A stretch of DNA of 64,000 nt. Origin: Beggiatoa leptomitoformis. Its GTDB lineage: Bacteria > Pseudomonadota > Gammaproteobacteria > Beggiatoales > Beggiatoaceae. Below are positions 16,352 to 32,216 of the stretch, piece by piece. The position numbers and the translations under genes were made by a program. Every line of letters begins with the position of its first letter. Within the stretch, counting starts at the first letter, position 1. The stretch covers positions 4,044,799-4,108,798 of the forward strand of contig NZ_CP012373.2 in assembly GCF_001305575.3 (NCBI RefSeq), written 5' to 3'. A model generated the notes under the pieces. That model was not told where the DNA came from. It did no database searches and saw only the letters and a list, made by a program, of their open reading frames with translations.

Positions 16352-16852
16352 GTGTCCATGCTTCAAAAAAAAATCTGCATGATTGGAGATTTTTCCGTCG
16401 GAAAGACCAGTCTTGTTGCACGTTACGTACATCAAGCCTTTTCCGACAAATACCTCACGACCGTTGGGGTAAAAATTGACACGAAACTGGTCACCTTACC
16501 AACAGGTGATATGAAGTTTATTTTGTGGGATATTGCAGGCGCGGATAAATTAACAACCGCCTCAATGACCTATTTGCGAGGGGCAGCAGGATATTTACTA
16601 GTCGTTGATGGAACACGCCTCCCTACATGGGAAAGTGCGATTAACCTACAACAAGCCGTCACACAACAAATAGGTAATAAACCCTTTTTAGTTCTATTAA
16701 ACAAATGTGATTTACAAAACCAATGGGAAGTTAATGAAACACGACTAGCCCCTCAACGGGAACAAGGTTGGCATTTTTTAGAAACCAGTGCAAAAGAAGG
16801 ACTTAACGTAGAAAATGCCTTTCTCCAACTTGCGCAACAATTGGTAGGATAA
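16352..16852 (+). CDS. Small Ras/Rab-like GTPase
   Basis: A 166-residue single-domain GTPase. The start is GTG 16352, 7 bases after AAAAGGGGA; ATG at 16358 is the alternative. Motifs in order: P-loop GDFSVGKTS (Lys18), switch I Thr in TTVGVKI, G3 DIAGAD, G4 NKCD and G5 TSAKEG. The usual catalytic Gln of DTAGQ is Ala here, so intrinsic hydrolysis may be slow and depend on a partner, as known for several prokaryotic Ras-like proteins. There is no lipid-anchor motif. Its stop overlaps the start of the kinase gene by one base (TAATG), so the two are translationally coupled. It probably acts as the switch of this locus; the effector is unknown. Confidence 0.92.
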   Translation: MSMLQKKICMIGDFSVGKTSLVARYVHQAFSDKYLTTVGVKIDTKLVTLPTGDMKFILWDIAGADKLTTASMTYLRGAAGYLLVVDGTRLPTWESAINLQQAVTQQIGNKPFLVLLNKCDLQNQWEVNETRLAPQREQGWHFLETSAKEGLNVENAFLQLAQQLVG

Positions 16853-18456
16853 TGATTATGATGACAATCCCCCTTAGTATTGCAAAATATGCACATACCC
16901 TTTGGATGTCGGAATTAGTACTTACCTACTTACACGTGGACGAGCAAGGCATACTTGTCAACTGGGGCGGATATCCACGTCATTATGGTTTAGGTGAACT
17001 ACGAACAGGCGAATTAGCTGCCGAACAAGTTTATGTATTAGAAGGCTTATTTCCCATTAATCACACTCAAATTGTAGAGTTTGTTGAAATGGGAAATGGA
17101 CGAGTAGCGCATATCCACCTATTACCGTTTCAAAAAGGCACATGGATATTAATGCTAGATGCGACAGAAGAACACAATCGTCAACAACGCTTACAACAAC
17201 AAGCTAACGAATTAAGCATCTTAACGTATCGTCAAAGTCGTTTATTACAAGAACTAGAAAATATTCGTCGCAACCTAGAACAAGAAAAATTGCAACTACA
17301 ACAGGCAAATGAACAAAAAACGCGGTTTATTGCCTCCCTATCCCATGAATTACGCGCGCCACTAGCGTCCATCATGGGCTATACAAAACTACTTAATGAC
17401 GCACAAGCATCTGATAAAACAGAAAATGACTATTTAAACGCCGTTGAAAGTAACGCCAATCACCTCATCAAACTGGTTGACGATATTTTAGACCAAGCAA
17501 AATTAGACATTGGCAACATTCAGCTAAAACCAACTGCTTGCCATCTAATGGATTTAATAAAAAATTTACGCCAACTTTTTTTACCCGTTGCCCAAGAAAA
17601 GCAACTAATATTTACCATCATCACTAAAAACAATAGCATATTACCATCTGTTTTAATTGATGAAATTCGGTTGCGTCAAGTTTTTATTAACCTCATCAAT
17701 AACGCTTTAAAATTTACAGCGAAAGGCTTTGTTAATGTAACGATTGAATGGCGAGAAGACCGCTTATATTTTTCCATTCAAGATTCAGGCGTAGGTATTT
17801 CTGCCGAAGGCTTACAAAAACTATTTACCGCTTTTTACCGAGATAAAACCACAGAAAATCAGCCCGGTACGGGACTGGGTTTATCCATAAGCCAAAAAAT
17901 AGTGCGTTTAATGGAAGGTAGCATTACCGTTGATAGCATAGAAGGTAAAGGCTCAACCTTTAATGTTATCGTACACGCCCCCCGTGTTTGGCAAGCAGAG
18001 TTACTAACCATAAAACGGGACTTAGAACAAATGCCGACACAACCCCTAAAAACTGTCGCGACGAATAAAAAACGTAAATTATTACTAGCAGAAGACACTG
18101 AAGTATTACGTCTGTTATTCAAACTAATTTTAAATGAACACTATGAGCTAGTTATGGCAGAAAATGGGGAAGATGCTGTACGGTTAGCACTGCTTGAGAA
18201 CCCCGACATAGTTCTAATGGATTTACAAATGCCTATCATGAATGGCTATGACGCAACCAAACAATTACGCTCAGAAGGATTTAATACACCGATTATCGCC
18301 TTATCCGCCTCTAATTTTGAAGAAGACCGCAATTATGCCATGCAACTGGGTTGCAACGCCTATCTTACAAAACCCGTTGATAATCAACGTTTATTAAACA
18401 CAATCCTGCAAGTTATTGAAAATAGCAAAGCATCTCAAGTTTGTCATAGCAAATAA
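16852..18456 (+). CDS. Hybrid sensor histidine kinase with C-terminal receiver
   Basis: 534 residues and no transmembrane segment, so cytosolic. Residues 1-115 form a PAS-like sensor region (LHVDEQGILVNWGG, GTWILMLDATEEH). A coiled-coil linker follows. HisKA has the phospho-acceptor His165 in SHELRAPLASI. The HATPase has N box NNALKF, G1 DSGVGIS and G2 GTGLGLS. A REC domain covers about 405-525, with acidic AEDTEV, phospho-Asp in VLMDLQMP and KP in LTKPVD. No separate output domain is fused, so the signal must pass to another protein. Coupling to the GTPase gene suggests that the kinase regulates, or reads, the GTPase state; that is inference. Confidence 0.93.
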   Translation: MIMMTIPLSIAKYAHTLWMSELVLTYLHVDEQGILVNWGGYPRHYGLGELRTGELAAEQVYVLEGLFPINHTQIVEFVEMGNGRVAHIHLLPFQKGTWILMLDATEEHNRQQRLQQQANELSILTYRQSRLLQELENIRRNLEQEKLQLQQANEQKTRFIASLSHELRAPLASIMGYTKLLNDAQASDKTENDYLNAVESNANHLIKLVDDILDQAKLDIGNIQLKPTACHLMDLIKNLRQLFLPVAQEKQLIFTIITKNNSILPSVLIDEIRLRQVFINLINNALKFTAKGFVNVTIEWREDRLYFSIQDSGVGISAEGLQKLFTAFYRDKTTENQPGTGLGLSISQKIVRLMEGSITVDSIEGKGSTFNVIVHAPRVWQAELLTIKRDLEQMPTQPLKTVATNKKRKLLLAEDTEVLRLLFKLILNEHYELVMAENGEDAVRLALLENPDIVLMDLQMPIMNGYDATKQLRSEGFNTPIIALSASNFEEDRNYAMQLGCNAYLTKPVDNQRLLNTILQVIENSKASQVCHSK

Positions 18457-18611: not shown

Positions 18612-18639
18612 GGTGCGTTACGGTGCGAAAAGATGCACC
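18612..18639 (+). repeat. Inverted flanking repeat, left copy
   Basis: GGTGCGTTACGGTGCGAAAA is followed by GATGCACC. The same core, in inverted orientation, is found at 23417-23455 on the other side of the Avs-like gene (GGTGCGTTAAGGTGCGAAAA on the minus strand). Together they bracket that gene. Confidence 0.6.
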
Positions 18640-18695
18640 TAATACACTCTACGCTGTACTTAGGATGAATAAATTTAAAACTTAGAGGACTAAAC

Positions 18696-21600
18696 ATGGC
18701 ATTAGAACTGGGTGGACTATCTGATAAATTAGGCAATCGTTATGAAGGTCGTTGGGTTGTAAAACAGCTATTATTGTTATTCGATGAAAAAAATAAATCC
18801 GTTCTGATAGAGGGTATTGGAGATGATGAGGTAGGGGTTGACCTGTGGGTTGAAACTGCTGACAGAGAACGGCAAGCACATCAATGTAAAGCACGCAATG
18901 CAAGCAAGCCTGAATGGTCTATCAGTGATTTAAAAAGTAAAGACGTTTTAAAAAAAGCTAAATATCAATTAGACCGTGATCCAACTTATACCTATTGGTT
19001 TATTTCTCATGTTGGTAACACTGGTTTACATGATATTTGTGAAAGTGCGCGTAATTCGAATAATAATCCTGAAGATTTCTATGAATATCAAATACAAAAA
19101 GTAGGCAAAGAGCGGCGCGACATTTTTACGCAATTTTGCGAGGCAATATCGCTTGATGAACAGCAAAAAACAGACCGTGCTAGAGCTTTCAATTATTTGA
19201 AACGCATCTATATCAACATTTATCCTGACGATGCAAATACACAAAATGATTTAAAACTGTTGTCTGAAAGGCTTCTGACAGGAGATGCGGATACTAACAT
19301 TGCGCTATTACGCAATTATGCTGATGAAAACTATCAATATCGTAAACCAATTGATGCTATAACACTGATTAAATACTTAAATAGTAAGGGAGTTAGTCAA
19401 AAAAACTTAGCGCACGATTCGCGAATTTTACCTGCCATAACAAAACTTCAGCAAGAATTTGCCGATTCCATAGAAAGTGGATTACAAAAAGAATTTGCCG
19501 ATTCCATAGAAAGTGGATTACAAATTAATCCATTAATACACCGTCAAAAAACACAAATAATACCCCGTCAAGAAACACAAACCTTAATCAATGCACTCTC
19601 TACTCATAAAAATATTATTTTGCATGGTAAGGCAGGCTATGGAAAAAGTTGTGTTTTGTATGATGCATTCACAAATTATCTAAATATCCTTTATTTACCC
19701 ATTCGTTTAGACCGACGTGAACCGCAACACACAACGGCTGAATTTGGAAAGCAAATGGGTTTACCTGATTCGCCTGCTCGGTGTTTAAGTGGCATAACGC
19801 CTGATAATCAAGCTTGTGTATTGATATTAGACCAGTTAGATACCTTACGCTGGACGGCATCCCATTCAAAAAATGCACTGGATGTGTGTAAACATTTAGT
19901 GCAAGAAATTCAATCATTACAAACAGAAGGGAAAAAAATAAGCGTTGTTATTTGCTGTAGAAGCTTTGATTTAGATAACGACCCTGAAATTAAACATTGG
20001 CTATCTAATGGTAAAGAAAATAAGCCATTTGAAAAAATAGCTGTTGAGCGTTTAAGTACAGAAATCGTGCAGCAGACTGTAGGAAATAACATATTTACAC
20101 AGTTAAATAAAACGCAAAAAGAAATTTTAAGTAATATTCAACATTTAACTATGTGGCAAATTATTCATGCTTCAGGAAAACAACCTAATTTTAAATCAGC
20201 AACCGATTTAATGCGTAAGTTTTGGGAAGATCGTTATGAATTACTAGAAAAAAAGGTTAATTTAAGTTCAGAACAAGTAAAGAAGGTTTTAAAGCCTTTA
20301 ATTCAGTATATGGAGTCTAAGCAAAAGTTATCTGCCCCTGAAAGATTAGTGAGTAAAGAACCAAATAGTTTTAAAGCGTTACAATCGTATGGCATTTTAC
20401 AACTTACCAATGGTGAAATAACTTTTTGTCATCAAAATTATTTAGATTATCAAATTGCATCAAACTTAATTGAGCAAATTGAGAGTGGGGAAAATGACGT
20501 ATTAAGCTGGTTAGGTGGGCAAGAAAAACAATCACTTTTTCGTCGTGAACAGTTGCGCCAAGTATTAAGTTTATTAGCCGATGAAACTCCTCAAGAATGG
20601 CTTACAATCAGTCAAAAATTATTAACCTCCGATTCTGTCCGTTTTCACTTAAAATATTTAGTTTTAATGCTGATTGGACAACAAGAAAATGTTTTTTCTA
20701 AATTAGGTGCTTTTTGTTTAACGTTTTTAAACGATGAAAAATGGCATAAACAAATTGTAGAAACTGTTTGTTTAGCACATTCTCAATATGTTCAATTTTT
20801 GATTGATAACAAAGTTATTACTGATTGGTTAGATTCAGAAAATGAACAATATGTTAATGAGGCTTTATGGTTGCTAAGGTCTGTTGCAGAAAAAATACCT
20901 GATGCAGTCACGGATGTGATAGAACCCTATATTGATAAGGGCGAGAGTTGGTATCAAAAAATATTCCGTGTGTTGTGTTGGAGTGAGGAAAAGGACTCAG
21001 ACAAGATGTTTTTATTGCGTTTACGTCTTATACACCTAAATATCTATAAATATTTTATCAATTGGAAAGAAGTAGCTAGTCATTGTCCTTTAAGAATTAT
21101 TGAATTATTAGAAGCCATTATGTCAACTTGGCAACCAAATGAGAATAATAATGTATCTCAGCAAGAAAAGTTGCACATGTGGAACAAAAGTGCGAATGAC
21201 TTGTTAAACCAAGCAGTCAGACAATACCCTAAAGAAACATGGGTTAAATTGATGCCTCAGATAGAGAGATTAACGGCTTCTACAGAATCAGAATATGATA
21301 GTTTTTGGTATTCTAAATGGTGGAAAAATCCTGATTTTCCATCTATCAAGTATGGAATCGTAACATTAGTTATCTCGGCAGGAAAAACATTTGCAACACA
21401 AAACCCCACAGAATTTATTCAAAATAGCCAAGCATTTGTAACTTCTAATTCATATATTACACAACGCCTTTTAATTGAAGCTTACGCAAAATTACCTCCA
21501 TCTCATGCAGATGAAGGAATATTATGGTTATTAGCTGATTTAAAAAGATTTCAATTAGGAGACGGCCATTATGAGGTGAAATGGCAACCTGCTATTGTGT

Positions 21601-23345
21601 TAATAAAGAACCTTTCACCTTATTGCAGTGATGAATTGTTTAATACATTGGAAAAGACTATTTATTATTTTCCAGCAGAAGATAAAAATCGTGTAAAAAA
21701 TAGATTGAATAGTTCAAAAGAAGGCTGGTTTGGTGATTATTGGGGAAGAACACAATATTTTTTATTGCCTGCCTTATCCCCTAAACGCCGTACACGTCAA
21801 ACAAACGAGTTAATTGTTGTATTGCACGAAAAATTCTCATCTGATTTATATTCAGATTCAAGTTTTTGCCATCAGGTTACAATTTTTAATGAGTCGGGCG
21901 GTTCTAAGTTATCGCCCAACTTAAATAAATTTAGTAATAATAAGTGGTTAAAAATTATTGAACAATCAGAAGAAAAAATACCTAAAACGGGAAACTTTAA
22001 TAAGTTCTCACATAGTTTGGAACGAATCGCCTCACGGTTTCCTGAACGTTTCGGACAACTAGCGTTACAGTTTCCTGATACGGTTGCCCCTAATTATATT
22101 TCTGCCATTTTAAGGGCTGTCCAACTGACTAAACCCGATAACAATACACCTACTGAAGAACACGAAACATGGCAACCTGCATCAATTGCAACTGTAGAAG
22201 CCGTTTTAAATAAATATCGACAACAAACAGACGATGATAGAGAAACGGCAATGAGTTTTTGTCGGCTTGTGGCGGAAAGATGTAAAGAACATTGGTCTGA
22301 TGCTTCTATTAACCAATTAATTGATTATGCGCAAAATTACATAGACCCTATTCTCGGAGAGCTTAATGTAACATGGTCTAATGCTTCTGAAAATTATGTG
22401 CGTGGTTCAGCAATCCATGCCATTGCGCAATTATTTTGGCATCACAATGAATATTTAGATAAATTTACACCCTGTATTGAGCAATTAGTTCAAGATGCGC
22501 ACCCTGTTATTAGAATGGCAAGTATAAAAGTTTTATTACCATACGCTAATCACAACAAATCATTAGCAGTAAAATATTTTTGTGTAGCCTGTCAAAGTGA
22601 TGTCCGTATCATGGCATCTCACTATGCAATATATTTTGTAAAACACACAATAAAAGATTTTTTCTCAGAAATATCCCCATTGATTCGACAAATGTTAGAT
22701 TCATCTTTAGAGAATGTTGTTGAGAAAGGTAGTGAATATATAACGGGTTATTGGCTTTTTTATGGTTTTTTTGCGGAGGAATTAGAGCGTTGTAAACAAG
22801 GCTCGGTCGCACATCGTAAAGGCGTTGCAACAATCGCTGAAAGTTTTGTAACAGAACAAAAATACACAGAATCTTGTAAAGCTCTATTACAATTGTATTT
22901 TAATGATGAAGATAAAGATGTTCGTAGAAAAGTTGGCTTGGGCGTACTTTGCTCTGAATTGTTTAATGATGTTAAACATCATCCATTTATTGCAGAGTAC
23001 ATACAATCAGTTGCTTTTAAAGAAAATTTTGAATCGTTCATTCATAGGATAAAAGAAATGAAAGGCTCTCTTTTATTCTTCAAAAAGCCACTTTTGGAAG
23101 CCTGTGAACAATTATTAACGCTTAGTCTGGAAAATAACCAAAAAAGTGAAATGGCTAGGGATTATAGTGAAATGGCTAGGCATTATACAGCGGAGCTTTC
23201 TTCTATATTGCTTCGCTTATATGAGCAAGCTCAAGGTGAGTATGATGATGAAACTGCTAGCGAATGTTTAGATATGTGGGATAAATTTTTTCAACATAAT
23301 ATCGGAACAACCAGAGAATTATTAAAATCTATTGAGTCCTCTTAA
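18696..23345 (+). CDS. Avs-like antiviral protein: PD-(D/E)xK nuclease + STAND NTPase + helical repeats
   Basis: 1549 residues, starting at ATG 18696 after GAGGACTAAAC. The N-terminus looks like a restriction-type nuclease: Glu17 in RYEG, Asp49 in EVGVDLWV and Gln63-x-Lys65 in HQCKAR, a D...QxK variant of PD-(D/E)xK. The P-loop NTPase core has Walker A GKAGYGKS at 311-318 and Walker B VLILDQLD near 375-382, consistent with STAND. From about 600 to the end it is long, helical and HEAT/TPR-like (HPVIRMASIKVLL), the usual sensor part. This order and size match Avs proteins, which recognise a phage protein and then cut DNA. Two in-frame tandem duplications are present (near residues 254-276 and 1484-1497). 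It stands alone between inverted repeats. Phage specificity is unknown. Confidence 0.8.
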   Translation: MALELGGLSDKLGNRYEGRWVVKQLLLLFDEKNKSVLIEGIGDDEVGVDLWVETADRERQAHQCKARNASKPEWSISDLKSKDVLKKAKYQLDRDPTYTYWFISHVGNTGLHDICESARNSNNNPEDFYEYQIQKVGKERRDIFTQFCEAISLDEQQKTDRARAFNYLKRIYINIYPDDANTQNDLKLLSERLLTGDADTNIALLRNYADENYQYRKPIDAITLIKYLNSKGVSQKNLAHDSRILPAITKLQQEFADSIESGLQKEFADSIESGLQINPLIHRQKTQIIPRQETQTLINALSTHKNIILHGKAGYGKSCVLYDAFTNYLNILYLPIRLDRREPQHTTAEFGKQMGLPDSPARCLSGITPDNQACVLILDQLDTLRWTASHSKNALDVCKHLVQEIQSLQTEGKKISVVICCRSFDLDNDPEIKHWLSNGKENKPFEKIAVERLSTEIVQQTVGNNIFTQLNKTQKEILSNIQHLTMWQIIHASGKQPNFKSATDLMRKFWEDRYELLEKKVNLSSEQVKKVLKPLIQYMESKQKLSAPERLVSKEPNSFKALQSYGILQLTNGEITFCHQNYLDYQIASNLIEQIESGENDVLSWLGGQEKQSLFRREQLRQVLSLLADETPQEWLTISQKLLTSDSVRFHLKYLVLMLIGQQENVFSKLGAFCLTFLNDEKWHKQIVETVCLAHSQYVQFLIDNKVITDWLDSENEQYVNEALWLLRSVAEKIPDAVTDVIEPYIDKGESWYQKIFRVLCWSEEKDSDKMFLLRLRLIHLNIYKYFINWKEVASHCPLRIIELLEAIMSTWQPNENNNVSQQEKLHMWNKSANDLLNQAVRQYPKETWVKLMPQIERLTASTESEYDSFWYSKWWKNPDFPSIKYGIVTLVISAGKTFATQNPTEFIQNSQAFVTSNSYITQRLLIEAYAKLPPSHADEGILWLLADLKRFQLGDGHYEVKWQPAIVLIKNLSPYCSDELFNTLEKTIYYFPAEDKNRVKNRLNSSKEGWFGDYWGRTQYFLLPALSPKRRTRQTNELIVVLHEKFSSDLYSDSSFCHQVTIFNESGGSKLSPNLNKFSNNKWLKIIEQSEEKIPKTGNFNKFSHSLERIASRFPERFGQLALQFPDTVAPNYISAILRAVQLTKPDNNTPTEEHETWQPASIATVEAVLNKYRQQTDDDRETAMSFCRLVAERCKEHWSDASINQLIDYAQNYIDPILGELNVTWSNASENYVRGSAIHAIAQLFWHHNEYLDKFTPCIEQLVQDAHPVIRMASIKVLLPYANHNKSLAVKYFCVACQSDVRIMASHYAIYFVKHTIKDFFSEISPLIRQMLDSSLENVVEKGSEYITGYWLFYGFFAEELERCKQGSVAHRKGVATIAESFVTEQKYTESCKALLQLYFNDEDKDVRRKVGLGVLCSELFNDVKHHPFIAEYIQSVAFKENFESFIHRIKEMKGSLLFFKKPLLEACEQLLTLSLENNQKSEMARDYSEMARHYTAELSSILLRLYEQAQGEYDDETASECLDMWDKFFQHNIGTTRELLKSIESS
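19455..19523 (+). repeat. Exact 33-base direct repeat, period 36, inside the Avs-like gene
   Basis: Two identical copies, 19455-19487 and 19491-19523, each encode EFADSIESGLQ. The duplication is in frame and adds 12 residues in the linker between nuclease and NTPase. Perfect identity suggests a recent event. Confidence 0.9.
23145..23186 (+). repeat. 21-base near-exact tandem duplication near the 3' end of the Avs-like gene
   Basis: AGTGAAATGGCTAGG plus GATTAT or CATTAT occurs twice in a row, encoding SEMARDY then SEMARHY. It is in frame, with one base different. Confidence 0.85.
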
Positions 23346-23416
23346 TCCGCGCGAGTAAATCCTATACTATTTAAAATAGATTAAGTTCAATCTGAACTTT
23401 GGAATCAACAATCATA

Positions 23417-23455
23417 GCGTGCGTTAAGTGCGTCTTTTCGCACCTTAACGCACCC
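23417..23455 (-). repeat. Inverted flanking repeat, right copy (palindromic)
   Basis: A near-perfect hairpin: GTGCGTTAAGTGCG on the left arm and CGCACCTTAACGCAC on the right, around TCTTTT. On the minus strand it matches the left flanking copy. It lies between the convergent ends of the Avs-like gene and cysI, and may also stop transcription there. Confidence 0.65.
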
Positions 23456-31274: not shown

Positions 31275-32216
31275 TTAATCTTCAATTTCTTGCTTGGAAA
31301 GTCCTGTGACCTGCATGATGGTTTCTAGGGGCAAACCTTGTGTTTTTAGTTGTTTAGCTATTTCTCGTTTAGCTTGTCGTTCGCCTAATACAATTCCCTC
31401 AATGATGCCTTCTTCTTTTCCTAAGATGATGCCTTCTTCTTTTCCTAAGATGATACCTTCTTCTTTTCCTAATACGATTCCCTCGATGATACCTTCTTCT
31501 TTTCCTTCAGCAAATGCGGTATCTAATACGGCTTTATTTGACCAGTAGTTCATTAAACTTTTTTGGTATTGTCGCGCTTGATTGGGCTTTAAGTTTGATA
31601 ATTCAGCAATTTCAAAGGCTTTTTGAAAGACGGGTTCGTTAAGAATTCGTGGGATTTCTTCAAAATCAGCTAAATTTTTCAAGAAAAATACCCATTTTTC
31701 AAAATGATTTTCTAACTCTTCGGCTTTCTTATCAAATAAGGGCATTTGTAAAAAACAGAAATGGAGTTTGTCACAAAATAGCTCGCCATCTTGGTCTTTT
31801 AAGCTGACATATTGGCGAAATTTTAGTGGGTCATTTGGTTCTTCAATAATGCAGTCTAATATTGCAACAAAATATACGGTGGATAATTTGAAATCCCATA
31901 CGCCTTTTTTAGCTTGTTCTTGAATGGGAAAGGTAATGTAGTACAGCGAGCGGTCTTTAAAAAAGTCTATGCGGGCGCGTTGCATTTCTACAATAAAATG
32001 TTCTCCTGAGGGACTGGTGCAGTAAATATCAAAAAAGGCTTTACGGTCATCAGGGTAAAGCGGTAGTTTTTCGGTATTTTTAAATTGTAATGATTGAATT
32101 TGATGGTGTGCGGGCAATAGCTGATTTAAAAAGTCGATTAATAGGTCTTTGTTGGCTTCTTCACCAAAGAGTTTTTTAAAGCCAAAGTCGGTGTAGGGGT
32201 TGAAGTAACGGGACAT
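31275..32216 (-). CDS. Rpn-family PD-(D/E)xK nuclease / putative transposase
   Basis: 313 residues, starting at ATG 32216 behind AAGGAGACT. It matches the Rpn/PDDEXK_2 family (recombination-promoting nucleases): MSRYFNPYTDFGFKKLFG at the start, and the nuclease core FFDIYCTSPSGEHFIVEMQ with Asp and Glu-x-Gln as D...ExQ. RpnA-type proteins cut DNA and stimulate RecA-independent recombination; some act in phage defence. The C-terminus has a tandem 8-residue repeat (GKEEGIIL) and an [12 protein letters not shown] tail. Such tails often vary in copy number. A shortened second copy of the tail follows directly downstream. Confidence 0.9.
   Translation of the reverse strand: MSRYFNPYTDFGFKKLFGEEANKDLLIDFLNQLLPAHHQIQSLQFKNTEKLPLYPDDRKAFFDIYCTSPSGEHFIVEMQRARIDFFKDRSLYYITFPIQEQAKKGVWDFKLSTVYFVAILDCIIEEPNDPLKFRQYVSLKDQDGELFCDKLHFCFLQMPLFDKKAEELENHFEKWVFFLKNLADFEEIPRILNEPVFQKAFEIAELSNLKPNQARQYQKSLMNYWSNKAVLDTAFAEGKEEGIIEGIVLGKEEGIILGKEEGIILGKEEGIIEGIVLGERQAKREIAKQLKTQGLPLETIMQVTGLSKQEIED
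31400..31505 (-). repeat. 24-base tandem repeats inside the Rpn-like gene
   Basis: About four copies of a 24-base unit (CTAAGATGATGCCTTCTTCT plus TTTC on the plus strand), encoding GKEEGIIL or the variant GKEEGIIE. The unit keeps the reading frame, so slippage changes the length without breaking the gene. Confidence 0.85.

Follow-up and report, generated by a model that had tools for sequence, protein, structure and literature searches.

A Predicted NLR-Like STAND Protein with a Cap4-Like Nuclease Head in Beggiatoa leptomitoformis, Probably a One-Protein Antiviral System

The Gene and Its Setting

The window, which is the whole 64,000-nucleotide stretch of Beggiatoa leptomitoformis DNA that was analysed, contains a real single open reading frame (ORF) that starts with ATG and encodes 1549 amino acids (Table 1). 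The gene is present as a single copy in its own 4.27-Mb genome. Upstream lie two genes recognised by Pfam, one for a small Ras-like GTPase (16352-16852), the other for a hybrid histidine kinase (16852-18456); downstream, on the opposite strand, are cysI- and cysJ-type genes, assigned from their Pfam domains. The GTPase ORF (Pfam Ras, E 3e-32) abuts the start of the kinase ORF, and the two form a GTPase-kinase pair in a bacterium (16352-18456). A Pfam scan of 10 window ORFs turned up no defence gene, and no Rfam family was found anywhere in the 64 kb. Between 18400 and 18760, the single promoter-like site is on the other strand and at chance level, and no terminator was detected.

Table 1. Positions in the window of the gene, of its predicted parts and of the flanking elements.
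Feature	Position	Strand	Basis
Dispersed hairpin element, upstream copy	18612..18651	+	Repeat search, BLAST, folding
AGAGGA, ribosome-binding-like stretch ahead of ATG	18684..18689	+	Read off upstream sequence
Single ORF: Cap4-like nuclease, STAND ATPase and HEAT-like putative sensor	18696..23345	+	ORF call, family alignment
Predicted Cap4/DUF4297-type PD-(D/E)XK nuclease head, residues 10-234	18723..19397	+	AF2 model, VIA, hhalign
D49, predicted metal ligand	18840..18842	+	Acidic in 78/78 N-termini
Q63-C64-K65, QxK half of the predicted active site	18882..18890	+	Motif conservation, Cap4 alignment
Linker, residues 235-295; tandem duplications in frame, 36 nt x2 and 24 nt x2	19398..19580	+	Repeat search
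STAND/NACHT-type ATPase with winged-helix region, residues 241-670	19416..20705	+	VIA
Walker A GKAGYGKS, residues 311-318	19626..19649	+	Sequence, family alignment
Walker B LILDQLD, residues 376-382	19821..19841	+	D379, Q380, D382 invariant in 64
All-helical C-terminal part, residues 660-1549, taken as putative sensor; 1064-1549 HEAT-like	20673..23342	+	AF2, VIA, Pfam sub-cutoff
Dispersed hairpin element, downstream copy, inverted orientation	23415..23454	-	Repeat search, BLAST, folding

The original prediction described a nuclease, a STAND NTPase and a long helical sensor in one chain. The D49 residue and the HQCKAR motif (62-67) that it named are present, a Walker A and a Walker B motif were also found, their conservation in the family speaks against chance, and the three-part chain is borne out by fold matches and conserved motifs, as discussed in the following sections.

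The Nuclease Head

Residues 1-670 were modelled with AlphaFold2 (AF2) using 60 aligned sequences, which gave a pLDDT of 91.1 and a pTM of 0.87. The alignments used for modelling (A4 and A5) are the rows of A2 and A3 minus the plasmid loci L008, L009 and L014. A2 and A3 each comprise the window protein and 62 of the 63 full-length relatives, with L055 omitted as a near copy of L054; alignment A7 comprises the window protein and 39 relatives. In the model, the head runs through a helix (15-29), a strand (33-38), a short helix (42-45), two strands (50-54 and 59-65), two helices (76-81 and 84-94) and a strand (99-104). D49 sits directly ahead of the second strand, and Q63-K65 are located within the third.

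Structure comparison using VIA matched the head to Cap4 (7yia) with a Z of 14.1 over 212 residues, an alignment that runs partly into the ATPase, as its model range of 8-407 indicates. Chain G of HerA-DUF 9c1m was matched with a Z of 13.7 over 175 residues at 3.1 A (model 10-232), and chain A of Hachiman 8zue, a subunit that the match row does not name, with a Z of 13.5 (model 13-234). Of the two nuclease types that the original prediction had singled out for comparison, Cap4 was thereby recovered; Mrr is absent from the 50 VIA rows, which does not exclude kinship with it.

The Cap4 comparison set consisted of six sequences, one being a PF14130 match over the cut-off and the other five, annotated as dsDNA nuclease or DUF4297, found alongside it. 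The alignment of these six with 40 family heads by hhalign gave an E of 1.1e-4 (probability 57), with GG, NR[YF], E39, QxK and W74 in register with the Cap4_nuclease profile. A HamA profile made from four HamA sequences did not match the family heads (hhalign E 0.85). The marks of the Cap4_nuclease superfamily, namely GG..NR[FY], an acid, QxK and a W motif together with the fold, were all found, the place of the Asp being ambiguous in the profile alignment. PF14130 (Cap4_nuclease) itself has no match in the own genome and does not appear at E<=1 among the Pfam families of the 1549-aa protein; when the head alone was compared with the PDB by sequence, 9n00 was the only chain at a meaningful E. 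Judged by sequence and model, the head is best regarded as Cap4-like. The Gln of HQCKAR had been considered unusual for such a nuclease, a view that no longer holds, since QxK is carried by all six of the aligned Cap4_nuclease-type sequences and is therefore the ordinary Cap4 form.

Conservation was assessed in 78 N-termini, the window protein and 77 others. As we read the hhalign result, residues 42-43 of the head, rather than 49, face the Asp pair of Cap4. Position 49, however, is acidic in 78/78 heads, as against 43/78 and 57/78 at positions 43 and 44, and D49 is therefore tentatively favoured over 43 as the catalytic Asp position and predicted metal ligand. The acid is Asp in 28 heads and Glu in 50, and a tree computed quickly from the ATPase region, with the nuclease columns left out, requires 2 Asp/Glu changes over 64 rows. 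Position 63 is occupied by Gln (71/78) or Ser (7/78), K65 is Lys in 77/78, and E17, E39, acid 49, Q63 and K65 occur together in 69/78. As DKLGNR[YF]E and xHQ[CT]K were the patterns of the genome scan, the conservation of these letters partly reflects how the sequences were picked; neither pattern includes E39, W74 or the acidic position 49.

The STAND ATPase and the C-Terminal Part

The linker that follows the head has an AF2 confidence below 50 at residues 267-283. The ATPase (about 241-670) was matched by VIA to NLRP9, NLRP3, NLRC4 and NOD2 with Z values of 20-22. Across 64 full-length rows, the window protein and 63 relatives, G314, G316, K317, D379, Q380, D382, R422, D425, F577 and H579 are invariant, and the Walker A motif as a whole is invariant or nearly so. 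In the Pfam search with the window protein, NACHT does not appear at E<=1; it matches 31/63 family fragments at E<=0.01 (best 7.2e-6), and the fold likeness to NACHT proteins is strong by VIA. The tripartite layout of a STAND NTPase was found in full: an N-terminal effector, an NTPase with Walker A/B motifs and a winged helix, and a C-terminal repeat domain.

The AF2 model of residues 560-1549 (pLDDT 87.3, pTM 0.73) is all helical beyond its first 20 residues. Residues 1064-1549 (fragment 505-990) match the HEAT repeats of the PP2A A subunit with a Z of 16.4 over 417 residues at 4.7 A, and Foldseek matched the tail to CAND1 and karyopherins, with HEAT/ARM solenoids such as importins among the best folds. 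HEAT/ARM solenoids are generally protein binders. A Pfam Adaptin_N/HEAT match to the tail stayed below the cut-off. Since unrelated helical repeats may reach a Z of about 13 without kinship, as the tool itself warns, the claim is limited to a HEAT-like solenoid. Residues 660-1060 are helical in the model and were barely compared; the entire part from 660 to 1549 is taken, by analogy, as the putative sensor. The matches from a single-sequence PDB search, mostly designed armadillo proteins at weak E, were read as general helical-repeat likeness and set aside.

Family and Spread

A class-wide search found the gene in 2/369 genomes: its own and G284, where only about the first 84 codons exist. A stretch that L007 (1486-1761) and L080 (9001-9252) have in identical form is what is left of the 5' end of a close relative (77%, 84 aa). 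The ORFs after the L007 remnant resemble transposase pieces by eye, and no further parts of the gene were found in the 18 kb of L080.

Ten related records were obtained from the plasmid collection. One relative, on an Isosphaeraceae plasmid, is full length (29%). The match to one Rhizobium and two Sinorhizobium records covers residues 6-745 and belongs to a 1574-aa protein (two loci fetched), a Herpetosiphon record matches 308-1454, and the other five match in the ATPase region only. No relatives were found in phage records or in viral contigs by two pattern-limited scans.

When the species genomes were scanned with an alignment of four members, the patterns matched 131 times; 84 relatives were recognised among these and 80 kept. 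At 60 of the 80 loci, one ORF of >=1400 aa is present, and these 60 span 14 named phyla, with 4 unassigned. At the remaining 20 the gene is split, shortened or runs off a contig, and for some of them the contig end is the whole cause. All 64 rows (window and 63) entered the tree of the ATPase region, in which phyla are mixed and the rows nearest to the window protein are from Myxococcota, Thermodesulfobacteriota, Nitrospirota and Riflebacteria. Distant kin with the same STAND core bear a SEFIR head (Nostoc) or a caspase head (Tolypothrix), the kind of effector swapping that is expected of immune STAND proteins. At loci L012 and L013, plasmids encode distant kin whose STAND core is similar and whose heads are of the SEFIR and caspase kinds.

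Origin, Flanking Repeats and Neighbouring Genes

The gene had been proposed to be a mobile defence cargo bracketed by repeats. Its GC content is 34%, compared with 40% for the window, and its GC3 of 0.243 is the lowest of the 25 window ORFs compared (next 0.287). It is absent from the same-genus sister genome G369; in 16/17 relatives searched there was no match, and the remaining one holds the 84-residue remnant. A foreign origin is supported by the low GC3, the absence from the sister genome and the phylum-mixing tree. No empty site can be read in G369, as the counterparts of the two flanks (cysI-cysJ, 85% DNA identity; kinase side, 77%) are separated there by about 1.57 Mb of contig C2. The bracketing repeats are indeed present, as 40-nt inverted copies of 85% identity, both about 70 nt or less from the gene ends, and they fold as hairpins on either side (z -2.9 upstream, -7.7 downstream). 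However, BLAST found the hairpin at 5 places in the genome, of which 2 flank the gene and 3 are elsewhere, and its core GGTGCGTTA has 93 genome occurrences versus 56 for the reversed control. The element is thus dispersed genome-wide and not specific to this unit, as the terminal inverted repeats of a transposon would be; a foreign origin is supported, and the reading of these hairpins as mobile-unit ends is not.

No partner gene recurs next to the family: among 298 neighbour ORFs at 59 loci, the largest group common to different loci has 4 members, in agreement with the single-gene claim. The immediate neighbours were also scanned (107/108, the 1913-aa ORF of L068 being omitted). With PADLOC at E<=1e-20, 108 families were matched, and the 25 of these that were listed include a type I S subunit, type III and IIG methylases, type IV restriction enzymes, AbiEi and a defence reverse transcriptase. 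Counting only mutually exclusive kinds among the matches listed, at least 9 of the 107 neighbours are defence proteins, whereas 91 control ORFs, taken from other genomes in the 14 of 20 control regions that existed, gave at most 4. The excess is suggestive at best, given a Fisher p of 0.39. Among the 107, Pfam also recognised an IS66 transposase, a TrwC relaxase and two integrases.

Relation to Known Systems

With Foldseek, the top solved match to residues 1-670 is Avs4 bound to the phage portal (E 3.3e-11). VIA matched Avs4 over 5-670 with a Z of 16.8 at an rmsd of 21.4, which indicates a domain arrangement different from that of the 1549-aa protein, and Avs3 over 10-500 with a Z of 14.3 and an rmsd of 14.1. 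The protein resembles Avs4 and Avs3 (8dgf, 8dgc) in uniting an N-terminal nuclease and a STAND ATPase in one chain. It differs from them in its HEAT-like tail, the tails of Avs3/4 being TPR-like, and in the lack of an Avs profile match. For Avs5, tails of TPR, Sel1 and PPR repeats are described (PMC12931631). The profile comparison with Avs1-5 went against membership: no PADLOC Avs model matched the window protein at E<=1, NCBIfam gave no match, and no Pfam domain was above its cut-off. Among the 63 family fragments, the Avs2 and Avs4 models match 9 and 2, with best E values of 1.2e-8 and 3e-7. The Avs-like reading consequently survives for the overall fold and not for a place among Avs1-5; the protein is related to the named Avs types, yet unmatched by their profiles.

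The full-length protein matched the PADLOC model PDC-M54A with an E of 1.4e-11, next to two weak rows (RecD_like, Cmr5). This match is local, its best stretch covering residues 169-429 and profile positions 196-434 of 1621 and thus short of the whole profile. PDC-M54A also matches 58/63 family fragments (residues 1-670). The window's own fragment 1-670 reaches no PADLOC model at E<=0.001, so the link depends on the full-length sum. PDC-M54A is a PADLOC candidate whose M presumably stands for multi-gene; the family differs in that no partner recurs at its loci. No paper naming PDC-M54 was found in the library searched. In the PDB, the family profile placed one chain far ahead of the rest, 9n00 (also 9n01 and 9yix), with an E of 1.2e-55 for the profile of residues 1-670 and 2.3e-34 for the C-terminal profile. 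This 'AAA family ATPase' of 1523 aa shares QCK and the downstream W with the family; unlike the family, its match begins at profile position 21, which leaves the GG-x-DKLGNRYE stretch unmatched. No paper naming 9n00 or 9n01 was found in that library. On sequence grounds, PDC-M54A (partially) and 9n00 appear to be the nearest catalogued kin.

Two other groups are comparable in architecture. The bacterial NLR-related proteins bNACHT25 and bNACHT32 (clade 6) likewise have a PD-(D/E)XK DNase head and a NACHT module, and D48A is described as abolishing defence by bNACHT25 (PMC12169576). Cap4 and DUF4297 nucleases share the fold and QxK with the head; they are fused to SAVED or paired with a separate ATPase, HerA, whereas head, ATPase and putative sensor here form one chain. 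The protein is a STAND protein of the immune kind, and its family is broad and mostly unnamed.

Proposed Function and Alternatives

Since one gene encodes a predicted DNA-cutting head, an NLR-like ATP switch and a long helical sensor, the 1549-aa protein is very probably a one-protein antiviral system; the defence role assigned by the original prediction is supported to that degree. It is quite likely that we are dealing with a single-gene, NLR-like STAND protein with a Cap4-type nuclease effector, which is triggered by a phage product and stops infection by cutting DNA. At rest, the ATPase would be closed. Binding of a phage product, probably a protein, to the C-terminal HEAT-like solenoid would open the STAND module, which would then oligomerise. 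The nuclease heads could pair and cut double-stranded DNA, and the infection would be halted, probably with the loss of the cell itself, as in abortive infection. This sequence of events is proposed by analogy with Avs3, HerA-DUF4297 and Avs1-4; what the analysis itself establishes is the anatomy of the protein. The nucleases of Avs3 and DUF4297 are described as activated by dimerisation after assembly of the ATPase (PMC12198126), and those of Avs1-4 as cutting both phage and host DNA (PMC12931631).

The trigger might instead be DNA. A restriction device could recognise foreign or modified DNA directly, with the STAND ATPase licensing the cut and no phage protein as ligand. DUF4297 with HerA is described as degrading dsDNA (PMC12198126), and restriction-modification genes are among the neighbours of relatives. 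This is nevertheless considered improbable, as the best folds of the tail are HEAT/ARM solenoids (PP2A A, importins) and the first 670 residues best match Avs4, a portal-protein binder. Alternatively, the occurrence of E49 in 50/78 and S63 in 7/78 heads could mean that the head, at least in those members, is inactive or an adaptor and that a recruited factor kills. The universal acid at 49, the near-universal K65 and the joint conservation of five residues make this very unlikely; the loci offer no recurring neighbour to recruit, and the window protein itself has D49, Q63 and K65.

The adjoining Ras-like GTPase and hybrid histidine kinase would suit a STAND ATPase with a signalling task outside defence, such as a stress or developmental regulator. 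Such a role is hardly credible in view of the low GC3, the patchy, tree-mixed spread over 14 named phyla, the lack of a match in nearly all relatives searched, where only a remnant turned up, and the split or truncated copies among the non-full-length loci, some of which are merely contig-end cuts. With the antiviral reading preferred, the family might quite possibly form a separate, unnamed and pan-bacterial Avs-like receptor type, combining a Cap4 head, a DQxD-type STAND switch and a HEAT-like sensor, which would bind a phage product other than terminase or portal and be split into an Asp-QxK and a Glu-QxK branch.

If the family is defensive, it adds another widely spread NLR-like receptor type in bacteria, with a nuclease that, in this protein, goes unrecognised by Pfam; its long tail, being HEAT-like, points to a ligand that has yet to be looked for. 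The D49 and E49 branches, together with the swapped heads of distant kin, provide a ready set for testing how a STAND switch is rewired to different killers.

Other Observations

Loci L064, L066 and L070, with the record titles Desulfobacterales, Aminicenantes and Deltaproteobacteria, have near-alike ATPase cores (end branches 0.02-0.08), the result of either recent transfer or a binning error. Three in-frame tandem duplications lie in the gene, at 19453-19524 (36 nt, exact), 19534-19581 (24 nt) and 23145-23187 (21 nt). Elsewhere in the window, a PD-(D/E)XK nuclease family transposase is encoded at 31275-32216 (Pfam PDDEXK_2, E 2.3e-62).
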